Below, piece after piece: positions 7,804-12,549 of a stretch of 20,046 nucleotides of DNA. The notes below the pieces were generated by a model, which had not been told where the DNA came from, searched no databases, and was given only the letters and a program-made list of their open reading frames with translations. The translations under genes were made by a program, and so were the position numbers. Each line of letters opens with the position of its first letter. Position 1 is the first letter of the stretch. Location of the stretch: positions 1-20,046 of the IMG/VR virus record IMGVR_UViG_3300021963_000837, one strand, 5' to 3'. The stretch comes from a virus.

Positions 7804-8145
7804 TCACTCTCCTCTTTCAAGTAATTGTTTAAGTTCATCTTCCAAATCTATCATGTTAGTTTCTACTACCATATCTTCAATGAGACTCGCTATTGTATTT
7901 GGCTGAGTCTCTGCCGTAAATAAAGTCATATAAGTTGACTCCGTTATCCCCTTAATATGTTCGGGACTGTCTGCATATTTATACATACACCTAAGCAATG
8001 AACCAATCATCAACCTATATCCATTAGGAAGAATTAATGATGGGTCAAACTCTTCATCATCTTCTAATAAGTGGTCAGTTGCATCAAATACATTCTCAAA
8101 ATGTTCGCCACATTCAGGGCATGGTGGCACAGGTTTTCTATTCAT
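7804..8145 (-). CDS. Conserved actinophage-type zinc-finger protein
   Basis: A 113-residue protein beginning in an ATGA overlap with the primase stop. Near the N terminus CPEC (9-12) and ATDHLLED (around H25) give a partial C2H2- or C2HX-like zinc site. The rest is helical and acidic: LILPNGYRLMIGSLLRCMYKYAD, then ITESTYMTLFTAE, ending LEDELKQLLERGE. I have the impression of similar proteins beside primase genes in actinobacterial phages, but the function is unknown. Three bases separate it from the next start, so translation is coupled. Possible roles are a primase or helicase partner, or DNA binding. Confidence 0.7.
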   Translation of the reverse strand: MNRKPVPPCPECGEHFENVFDATDHLLEDDEEFDPSLILPNGYRLMIGSLLRCMYKYADSPEHIKGITESTYMTLFTAETQPNTIASLIEDMVVETNMIDLEDELKQLLERGE

Positions 8146-8759
8146 AGCCCAGCCTTCTCTCTGATATAATCTGAACCATGTTTAACATACATACTATTGA
8201 CATCTTCATTGTCAGGTAGTTGAACAATAGTAACAGGTAGTTCTCTTGCTAAACTTGTAGCAAATTCTTTTCCTGGTTGGTCACCATCCGCGAACACGAA
8301 CACTCTCTCAAAGTCTGCCAACAATCTAGTGTAGTGTCGCTTCCAACTGTTAGCACCTGGAACTCCAACACATGGTATGCCAATGCAACTAGACATAGTT
8401 AAAGTATCTAACTCACCTTCGCATATACCAATATAATCTCCTGCTCTTTCAATATCTAAAACATTATACATTCTAGTTTCAGCACCAGTCATACCCATAT
8501 ACTTAGGTTCAACTGCTGGATTCAAAGAACGAAATCTTAAATCAACAACACCAGTCTTTGTAATGTAAGGGATAGATAGTCTACCAGTAAACTGTTCATG
8601 TCCAACTTCAGGTTCCACGACTACGCCTAATCGTGCCAGTCGTGCTGCTTCCATTGTTATACCTCTGCTTCGGAGGTAATCTTCTGCCTGATAAATGTTT
8701 GCCGCGTACCGCTGTGTCGCTGACCCCAGTAATTCCTTCTGCAATTCTTTTTGCTTCAT
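8142..8759 (-). CDS. Primase TOPRIM catalytic subunit
   Basis: A 205-residue protein with the DnaG-like TOPRIM core: GRLSIPY (59-65), CEGELDTL (113-120, catalytic Glu in the EGxxD motif), VPGANSWK (133-140), and FADGDQPGKEFA (156-167, the DxD metal site). The family makes RNA primers for replication. It lacks the CHC2 zinc finger, which is encoded just upstream in another frame. ATG 8759 has AGGAAAGGG about 9 bases upstream, so it can start independently. Its first 50 codons overlap the 3' end of the zinc-finger gene. The run AAAAA at 8750-8754, just inside the start, would also allow a +1 slip that fuses the two proteins in natural primase order. Confidence 0.85.
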   Translation of the reverse strand: MKQKELQKELLGSATQRYAANIYQAEDYLRSRGITMEAARLARLGVVVEPEVGHEQFTGRLSIPYITKTGVVDLRFRSLNPAVEPKYMGMTGAETRMYNVLDIERAGDYIGICEGELDTLTMSSCIGIPCVGVPGANSWKRHYTRLLADFERVFVFADGDQPGKEFATSLARELPVTIVQLPDNEDVNSMYVKHGSDYIREKAGL

Positions 8760-8973
8760 GTATATCTACCCTTTCCTGCTGTGAGACAATTTGTAATGAG
8801 TTACCTTGGACTCCGCAGGCAAAACAGATGAATATGTTATTATCGAGATTAGCACTTCCTGACTGGTGAGTGTCCGAGTGGAATGGACACTTGATATTAA
8901 CTTGCCCGTGTCCTTGTCGTATACTCGCTCCATAGTGGATGAGTATTTCTCTAATGCTTGGTAAGTCATTCAC
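8608..8973 (-). CDS. Primase CHC2 zinc-finger subunit
   Basis: A 121-residue protein. I chose GTG 8973 because GAGGGG lies 4 bases upstream. TTG 8985 in the same frame is less likely. It has the primase zinc finger: CPFH (C29, H32) and CFAC (C50, C53), with NIKCPFHSDTHQSGSANL before and IFICFACGVQGNSLQIV after, exactly the DnaG CHC2 arrangement. After VDIHEAKRIAEGITG the conserved primase sequence moves to the next frame, where the TOPRIM gene starts. The remaining residues here are basic and low-complexity (GKHLSGRRLPPKQRYNNG). The finger would recognise template and guide the TOPRIM subunit. Confidence 0.82.
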   Translation of the reverse strand: MNDLPSIREILIHYGASIRQGHGQVNIKCPFHSDTHQSGSANLDNNIFICFACGVQGNSLQIVSQQERVDIHEAKRIAEGITGVSDTAVRGKHLSGRRLPPKQRYNNGSSTTGTIRRSRGT

Positions 8974-9319
8974 TAATCCCCTCAATCCATTGCTCCAAAT
9001 CTTGTATTACCCATGCTTTACTTAACGGTGCTTGCTTTCGCTTGAGTATTATATACTTTGCTGGAACATAGTCGAGGTTGCGTGCCTTAGCATAGTTCTC
9101 TGCTTCAACACTAGCCTCTCTCCAAAACTGTGGTAAATCAATTTTCTTTGTAGCCTTTAGTTCTAATACATAAGTGTTGCCACCAATTACAGCAACGATA
9201 TCACCCTCATCTTTAGCGCCAGCCTTAGTTAATCTTTCAGCAAATATTTTCTTAGACCGTAACCATTTCACTATACCAGTTTCAAATGATGCGCCTTTGC
9301 GTTTACCATAACTACTCAT
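8966..9319 (-). CDS. Holliday-junction-resolvase-like nuclease
   Basis: A 117-residue protein. ATG 9319 is preferred over an in-frame GTG at 9331 because it overlaps the previous gene less. The sequence fits a small PD-(D/E)XK nuclease of the Hjc/resolvase type: basic N-terminal YGKRKGASFE with E13, then KAGAKDEGDIVAV with D40, then LELKA with E53 and K55 (the E-x-K signature), and an amphipathic helix with FWREASVEAENYAK. It would cut branched recombination or replication intermediates before packaging. It lies between the primase and another nuclease-like gene. A general nuclease role is the alternative. Confidence 0.75.
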   Translation of the reverse strand: MSSYGKRKGASFETGIVKWLRSKKIFAERLTKAGAKDEGDIVAVIGGNTYVLELKATKKIDLPQFWREASVEAENYAKARNLDYVPAKYIILKRKQAPLSKAWVIQDLEQWIEGISE

Positions 9320-11251: not shown

Positions 11252-11857
11252 TCATTTCTTCGAAGTGAACTGACAATGTTCTGTAAGTCCACATCGATTG
11301 CAGTTGTTTGTATTAGGTATAAAAATTCCTGACTTGCGTGCCTTATCAAATCCGCTGACAAGATACTCAAGTTTCTCTTCAGTATAATCAGTTAAATCTA
11401 TTAGTGGTGTAGTTCCTGACTGCCTAGCCATCCAGTATGCACCATACTTAACATCTACCCCTAGAACTTGTTTAAGTCCTAGGCGGTAGAAGCCAAGTTG
11501 TAGCGTGCTGAATGGGGTCTGTTGTGAAGTCTTCAGGTCAACCACGACTAATTCACCATCAACTTCAAACACTCTATCAATCACCATCTTAACAGGTATA
11601 TCTGCAAAGACAGGTGTTAGACCCAACTCAACGGCAGGTGCGCCTTCTGGTGTGTGCCAGATTCTCCAGTTATGATTAGCAGTTCGCCAATCAATATATG
11701 ATTGAACCCATTCAGGTCCAGTCTGTTGCCAGAAATCTATGTTCTCTCTATTAGGAAATGCTTTAGATGTTCTACCACCAACACGAGCAAAGGTTAAGTC
11801 TTTACCTTCTGCTTCCTTATTCCAAGCATCAGTCCAAAGACTTTGAGCGGTGACCAC
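11252..11857 (-). CDS. Cas4/RecB-like exonuclease, C-terminal part
   Basis: A 201-residue protein, GTG 11857 with GGGAGG 6 bases upstream. It carries the PD-(D/E)XK core: VELGL (E77), VIDRVF (D94), VVVDLKT (D107, K109) and QLGFYRL (120-126, motif IV). It ends with three cysteines CNRCGLTEHC (186, 189, 195), the C-terminal iron-sulfur ligands of Cas4-type nucleases. The N-terminal helices and first Cys of the family are missing here but present in the gene at 12059-12250, which is in the same reading frame 200 bases upstream. It would resect DNA ends for phage recombination, probably only with the N-terminal piece. A small ORF lies between the two. Confidence 0.8.
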   Translation of the reverse strand: MVTAQSLWTDAWNKEAEGKDLTFARVGGRTSKAFPNRENIDFWQQTGPEWVQSYIDWRTANHNWRIWHTPEGAPAVELGLTPVFADIPVKMVIDRVFEVDGELVVVDLKTSQQTPFSTLQLGFYRLGLKQVLGVDVKYGAYWMARQSGTTPLIDLTDYTEEKLEYLVSGFDKARKSGIFIPNTNNCNRCGLTEHCQFTSKK

Positions 11858-12062
11858 TTAGTGCCTCCCTAAGAACTAGTTTGGCATGTTGTAGTCCAGC
11901 AAGTTCAGTCTCATCTGTAGTCTTGTCAATAAGCGAATTAATGGAACCCATTGCAACAGCCCAGGTTTCTCTTAATCCATCTTCATAACGCTCACGCATA
12001 ATGGCTGAGTAAGTTTTCCAGGTCATAGTAGTTGACCCATCTTCATTAATAATTTCAATCAT
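11829..12062 (-). CDS. 77-residue ORF inserted in the exonuclease gene
   Basis: The frame runs from ATG 12062, in an ATGA overlap with the N-terminal exonuclease piece, to TGA 11831-11829, overlapping the C-terminal piece by 29 bases. The protein is helical and charged: MIEIINEDGSTTMTWKTYSA, RERYEDGLRETWAVAMGS, DETELAGLQHAKLVLREALS. I recognise no domain and see no homing-endonuclease, HNH or GIY-YIG motif. It interrupts what in related phages is, to my knowledge, one continuous exonuclease. It may be a moron-like insertion, a binding partner of the two halves, or the product of gene fission. Confidence 0.65.
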   Translation of the reverse strand: MIEIINEDGSTTMTWKTYSAIMRERYEDGLRETWAVAMGSINSLIDKTTDETELAGLQHAKLVLREALSGHRSKSLD

Positions 12063-12250
12063 AGGTTCTCCAAGTCCCACGCTTCTGTGGCTGAGTGAAA
12101 GGCAGAGCCACCAACAGACCATACGGATGGCTCTTCGGGTAGGCTAAGTAGACGACCTAGATAATACTGATATCCGCAGTCGATGAATGTAGTAAATGCT
12201 GAGTATGATATATGCTCAGGTAATGTGTAGTCTTGCAGTTGTATAGTCAT
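12059..12250 (-). CDS. Cas4/RecB-like exonuclease, N-terminal part
   Basis: A 63-residue protein from ATG 12250. HISYSAFTTFIDCGYQYYL (13-31) is the classical N-terminal helix of Cas4/AddB/RecB-type nucleases, with C25 as the first iron-sulfur ligand. GGSAFHSATEAW (47-58) is the next conserved helix with His52. The frame then ends at TGA 12061-12059. The continuation of the family is found in the same frame at 11857, after a 200-base stretch with several stops, so simple readthrough cannot join them. No ribosome-binding site precedes the ATG. The -10 box ends 7 bases before it, so translation is probably leaderless. It is the first gene of the replication operon. Confidence 0.75.
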   Translation of the reverse strand: MTIQLQDYTLPEHISYSAFTTFIDCGYQYYLGRLLSLPEEPSVWSVGGSAFHSATEAWDLENL

Positions 12251-12286: not shown

Positions 12287-12415
12287 GGTAAGGTTCCTAT
12301 GAGTAAGAATCAGGTATGCTATAATTGTATATTATAATATACAGTATATATATATAAGACCCCGAAGGGGTCTATTATATAATATATATAATATATACTA
12401 TAGGTAACTTACCTT
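12285..12415. repeat. Large AT-rich imperfect inverted repeat
   Basis: Outer arms 12285-12300 and 12400-12415 match at 14 of 16 positions (AAGGTAAG..CCTAT against ATAGG..CTTACCTT). Inside are the 16-bp palindrome GTATATTATAATATAC (12327-12342), long TA alternations and the hairpin at 12357-12373. The left arm touches the -35 box of the replication promoter. It could be a regulatory site, an origin-like duplex-unwinding region, or both. Confidence 0.6.
12357..12373. terminator. Short GC hairpin, terminator-like
   Basis: AGACCCC (12357-12363) and GGGGTCT (12367-12373) form a perfect 7-bp stem around GAA. On the minus strand the loop is TTC, as in many strong terminators, and AT-rich sequence follows. 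It would act as a second stop for transcripts arriving from the late operon. Confidence 0.6.
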
Positions 12416-12462
12416 AAATCTTATCTGAGTGGTTAGGGGAAGACCACCTAGATACGACAAAA

Positions 12463-12503
12463 GACCCCCCTTCCTAGTAGTGATACTAAGTTGGGGGGTT
12501 TTC
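12463..12503. terminator. Strong hairpin terminator of the late operon
   Basis: ACCCCCC (12464-12470) pairs with GGGGGGT (12493-12499). An inner stem TAGTA/TACTA (12475-12479/12484-12488) extends it. TTTT follows on the plus strand, and TCTTTT on the minus strand. It lies 47 bases after the holin stop, so it ends the minus-strand late transcript before the replication promoter. Confidence 0.8.
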
Positions 12504-12549
12504 GTGTCTCTAAAGGGCGTTTAAAGCCTGATTAGGGGCATATCTAAGC

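Follow-up and report, generated by a model that had tools for sequence, protein, structure and literature searches.

A Cas4-family nuclease encoded in two pieces across a family of lake phages, with and without a small gene at the junction

Here, we analysed a stretch of phage DNA of 20,046 nucleotides (IMG/VR virus record IMGVR_UViG_3300021963_000837, positions 1 to 20,046; hereafter the window), in which a nuclease of the Cas4 family (PDDEXK_1) lies in two pieces with a 77-codon open reading frame (ORF) between them. It is most likely, with a probability that we put at roughly 0.78, that this enzyme consists of two polypeptides produced through translational coupling, and that the junction between their genes tolerates insertions. 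Comparison of the sequences indicates that the split is family-wide, that start codons are present at every insertless junction and that the 77-codon gene was gained after the split. The locus contains the following features:

12059 to 12250, minus strand: N piece of the split nuclease, 63 aa, with N-terminal helices and the first cluster-type cysteine, C25
11829 to 12062, minus strand: insert ORF, 77 codons, whose ATG overlaps the stop codon of the N piece as ATGA
11252 to 11857, minus strand: C piece of the split nuclease, GTG start, 201 aa, with the PD-(D/E)XK core and three cysteines; motif residues D94, D107, K109 and QxxxY at 120-124, cysteines C186, C189 and C195
11864 to 11869, minus strand: Shine-Dalgarno-like GGGAGG within the insert ORF, ahead of the GTG of the C piece, as read from the sequence

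Both nuclease pieces matched the PDDEXK_1 profile (PF12705) above its curated cut-off of 22 bits and over complementary parts, the N piece at profile positions 1-47 (E 1.8e-6, 28.5 bits) and the C piece at positions 82-247 (E 2.6e-9, 37.8 bits); the C piece also matched Cas_Cas4 (E 2.7e-7). A preliminary description of the window had assigned these two ORFs to the N-terminal part of a Cas4/RecB-type nuclease, including C25, and to its catalytic core with the three other cysteines, and both assignments hold. It had also described the halves as being in the same frame with five stops between them and an ATGA-coupled 77-codon ORF in the gap; reading straight through from the N piece indeed meets exactly five in-frame stops, and the coupled ORF is present at 12062 to 11829. 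The last codons of the N piece (GAG AAC CTA TGA) hold both a Shine-Dalgarno-like GGAG and the ATGA start of the insert ORF, and the C piece begins within the 3' end of the latter. Since all three ORFs are conserved at the protein level in dozens to hundreds of other contigs, they are not chance ORFs.

To define the family, we pooled scans of IMG/VR, run with the two nuclease pieces, the insert and divergent C pieces, with scans of phage records, and removed duplicates. This gave 257 distinct loci from a single phage family in which both halves are present (213 distinct C proteins). The halves are separate in all 257 and fused in none, which marks a difference from known PDDEXK_1 members, where a single polypeptide is the rule even though it is no formal condition for the family. 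Among the loci read, fused ORFs were present only in four distant relatives, from phages of Mycobacterium (two), Rhodococcus and Cutibacterium, with 32-34% identity to the family in the C part; the enzyme is a single chain in other phages, as stated in the preliminary description. No single-chain relative was found between about 35% and 58% identity. Two scans of bacterial genome contigs did not reveal any relative, and no paper describing the split nuclease was found in the open-access literature.

One member of the family is OX376640, whose title gives it as the cultured Planktophila phage LanE43AprE7 (PMC10202952), in which the halves overlap by a few bases and no insert is present. OX376640.1 and OX376641.1, the latter presumably the sister phage F5, are both labelled 'Caudovirales sp. 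ct2KA10' and carry no annotation. An assembly error or a decayed pseudogene would account for the interrupted reading frame itself and for nothing else; against either stand the 257 distinct loci from many metagenomes, the two phage records of cultured isolates that show the split, the intact motifs and the low dN/dS, and we regard this explanation as negligible. Sequencing error as the source of the stops was likewise rejected by their recurrence across the family.

Three kinds of junction could be distinguished. At 193 loci there is no insert, and the halves overlap or abut (AATGxx, ATGA, TAATG). The frame of the C piece relative to the N piece is +1 in 162 of these loci, +2 in 31 and 0 in none, and every one of the 193 has an ATG or GTG in the C frame no more than 25 nt from the N stop. 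The 77-codon insert family is present at 58 of the 257 loci, with a length of 77-79 codons where measured and with ATGA or GTGA coupling in nearly all; N and C share a frame in most of them and differ in L132. The remaining six loci have something else at the junction:

L289: ORF of 69 aa with CxxC
L306: ORF of 47 aa with a DUF7695 match
L234 and L238: ORFs of about 110 aa, similar to each other
L224 (the same as L228): an L234-like ORF and a second gene with a sub-threshold DUF7574 match
L549: ORF of about 78 aa

The L289 ORF has a relative in a further genome of the family, where it seems to lie apart from the nuclease genes. The proposal that the insert had split the gene is contradicted by these data, as the split is family-wide and present in the 193 insertless loci, including the cultured phage.

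It had further been proposed that the halves must either meet as separate chains or be joined by ribosome bypass or RNA removal. Programmed frameshifting or bypass might be suspected because both halves retain all motifs, and in most insertless loci the halves would be joined by a single +1 shift at the N stop. However, the offset varies among close relatives (+1, +2, or about 200 nt of another ORF), no common slippery codon precedes the stop in the junctions inspected, and a start codon in the C frame accompanies all 193 insertless junctions, so that joining of this kind is highly improbable. Removal of the insert from the transcript as an intron or other RNA element deserves even less credence. 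It would agree with the shared frame of N and C in the window and in most insert loci, but the insert has no Rfam match, an unremarkable fold z-score (-0.98) and the codon-position pattern of a protein gene; moreover, the frame is broken in L132, and the halves of insertless relatives are out of frame with nothing between them. The conserved RNA structure with in-frame flanks that would mark a group I/II intron or a bypass element was not seen. Because the C piece is never in frame 0 at insertless junctions and a start codon always lies near the N stop, frameshifting, bypass and splicing are all strongly argued against, and of the two options first proposed only that of two polypeptides is supported.

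Two polypeptides joined by translational coupling would be produced as follows. The ribosome would make an N piece of about 62 aa and stop, and the C piece would be started separately, in insertless phages through the stop-start overlap and in most insert phages from a Shine-Dalgarno sequence of its own. An exact 7-nt match to AAGGAGGT precedes the C start in 39 of 56 insert loci, whereas the match in insertless loci reaches 5 nt at most and the majority lack even 4 nt. This pattern would fit initiation afresh where the insert is present and re-initiation where it is missing. Counting against the proposal, most insertless junctions have a weak Shine-Dalgarno match or none. The two chains would then associate non-covalently into one nuclease, with Cys25 of one chain and three cysteines of the other binding one Fe-S cluster. 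The separate translation, the assembly, the cluster and the nuclease activity are inferred.

The residues concerned are highly conserved. C25 was found in every N piece that covers the position, and D94, D107, K109, Q120, Y124, C186, C189 and C195 are each present at no less than 98% of 210 loci. The four conserved cysteines typical of an Fe-S module are C25 in the N piece and three in the C piece, and the earlier suggestion that iron-sulfur-type ligands are divided over two polypeptides stands as a division of one plus three cysteines, with the cluster itself presumed. Median pairwise dN/dS was 0.05 for N, 0.10 for C and 0.29 for the insert, values that are descriptive because pairs share branches and saturated pairs were left out. 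Both halves are under strong purifying selection with their motifs intact. Differences among insert sequences are most frequent at third codon positions and the insert ORF is intact in 54 of 54 loci examined; to judge from its sequence, the insert is also under purifying selection.

The model of the C piece alone (mean pLDDT 80) matched the Cas4-family nuclease ACE1 (9iab, 9iac), the nuclease domain of AdnA and human MGME1, with Foldseek E-values down to 7e-6 for the core and VIA Z up to 9.5 with AdnA. The C piece is accordingly modelled as a Cas4/AdnA/MGME1-type nuclease. Its cysteine tail (residues 187-201) was predicted with a pLDDT below 50, for which the absence of the N piece may or may not be responsible. 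Searches with the N and C profiles against the sequences of solved structures gave chance-level hits, with weak matches to MGME1 and an AdnA-like helicase-nuclease.

To order the events, we reconstructed a phylogenetic tree from N plus C and rooted it on the fused relatives. Its deep branches are insertless split loci, and the 77-codon insert marks one subclade (SH-aLRT 97) that includes the window. The other junction inserts fall in separate subclades. It is most likely that the 77-codon gene was gained after the split, in the subclade of the window. L149 and the L108 group are nested within this subclade and lack the insert, which was most likely lost at least twice; this number is approximate because branches within the subclade have moderate support (80-93). 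L350, which lies outside the tree, has a distant homologue of the insert, and a second gain or a transfer of the insert is therefore possible.

No Pfam or PHROG family matched the insert protein. Its model (pLDDT 87) shows a predicted beta-hairpin followed by a helical hairpin, and a fold search found no significant match in the PDB or among viral models; VIA Z scores did not exceed 8.1 and belonged to unrelated helical hairpins, which are a common arrangement. Neither Pfam nor PHROGs gave the insert a match to a homing endonuclease or to another mobility function, so that a homing endonuclease has no backing from a family match there. The preliminary description had seen in the insert a new type of small mobile or accessory gene: a separate small gene new to the databases it is, and the mobile part of the idea found no support in any recognised function. 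L057 and about ten similar loci carry an alternative C-terminal third of the insert (..HPENLAGLSIALRLAKQV..); at these loci the C piece seems to start at TTG, and the region looks like a replaced segment.

We consider the 77-aa protein most likely to be the product of an accessory gene tolerated by an already split junction. A role as a partner of the split nuclease is possible because the insert was found only at this junction. In its strong form, the protein would be a true third subunit or regulator, for example one that clamps the halves or gates the active site. All 68 relatives of the insert found in IMG/VR lie directly before a C piece (N is upstream in 65, and the other three are at contig ends), the insert is ATGA-coupled to N and overlaps C, it is under purifying selection, and its nucleotide distances correlate with those of the nuclease halves (Mantel r 0.54 and 0.45), as under a shared history. 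On the other hand, 193 insertless members of the family keep both halves, including L149 and the L108 group nested among insert carriers, and unrelated ORFs take the place of the insert elsewhere. The insert was also not found elsewhere in insertless genomes searched whole, in a scan that finds only sequences close to its patterns, so that remote homologues elsewhere are possible. Such a subunit is rather unlikely on balance. Still more doubtful is a junction that acts as a docking slot, where the 77-aa family and the unrelated inserts would be alternative third subunits tuning a two-chain Fe-S nuclease; if true, phages would change nuclease regulators by exchanging the gene that lies between the halves.

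For the T-even genes in pieces, the split is usually attributed to an endonuclease gene. Examples are Aeh1 nrdA with mobE, the T4 topoisomerase gene with mobA and gene 43A/43B of Aeromonas phage 25 with seg43, and the split NrdA and split gp43 have been reported to be functional (PMC2988022). As in those cases, an enzyme made as one chain in relatives is here encoded as two polypeptides with a gene between them. Unlike in those cases, the nuclease is split family-wide, in an event that predates the inserts; these are small, unrelated to one another and not recognisable as homing endonucleases, and the split enzyme is a nuclease whose cysteine cluster is divided. Gene 43 of phage 44RR, which is split by an untranslated stretch, comes closest to the insertless state (PMC2988022). 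The split nuclease can thus be considered a variant of the T-even genes in pieces, in which the split predates the inserts and no endonuclease is recognisable.

Another close counterpart is the Cas4 exonuclease of actinophages (Mycobacterium phages Miramae gp67 and HINdeR gp68; PHROG 69 and 1870; Cas4-like branch of pfam12705, PMC5704561). It shares with the split nuclease the domain family, the motifs, the four cysteines and the neighbourhood, with a DnaB-like helicase nearby, but it is a single chain of about 265 aa and is 32-34% identical in the C part. In the Argonaute-associated ACE1, the match starts at residue 77-83, and the preceding part of that single chain would correspond to the separate N piece here.

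The hosts of this lake virus family appear to be very abundant freshwater bacteria, and from its kinship with LanE43AprE7 the window's phage would also infect Nanopelagicales. The enzyme would be a nuclease whose Fe-S ligands are spread over two gene products and kept in this state across the phage family; two proteins would have to contribute to a single iron-sulphur site. With members that carry the insert, members that carry none and members that carry another, the family allows the split to be told apart from the invader and makes it testable how split enzymes persist and become places for gene insertion. In automatic annotation, the 63-aa piece may be overlooked or the enzyme taken for a truncated one. 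Experiments are possible with the cultured pair of phage LanE43AprE7 and its host Planktophila LanE-43.

Upstream of the N piece, the window contains strong inverted repeats, a terminator-like GGGGTCTTTT stretch and a long AT-rich palindrome (12346-12514), with two sub-threshold Rfam hits that are probably due to chance. Downstream of the locus lies a replication module with an L5 gp49-like protein, the DnaB-like helicase, a RusA-like resolvase and a primase in two ORFs. These primase ORFs overlap (8142-8985, minus strand), with a CHC2 zinc finger at 8608-8985 and a Toprim domain at 8142-8759; since a zinc-finger-only primase family is known (PHROG 360), the primase split is not new in itself.
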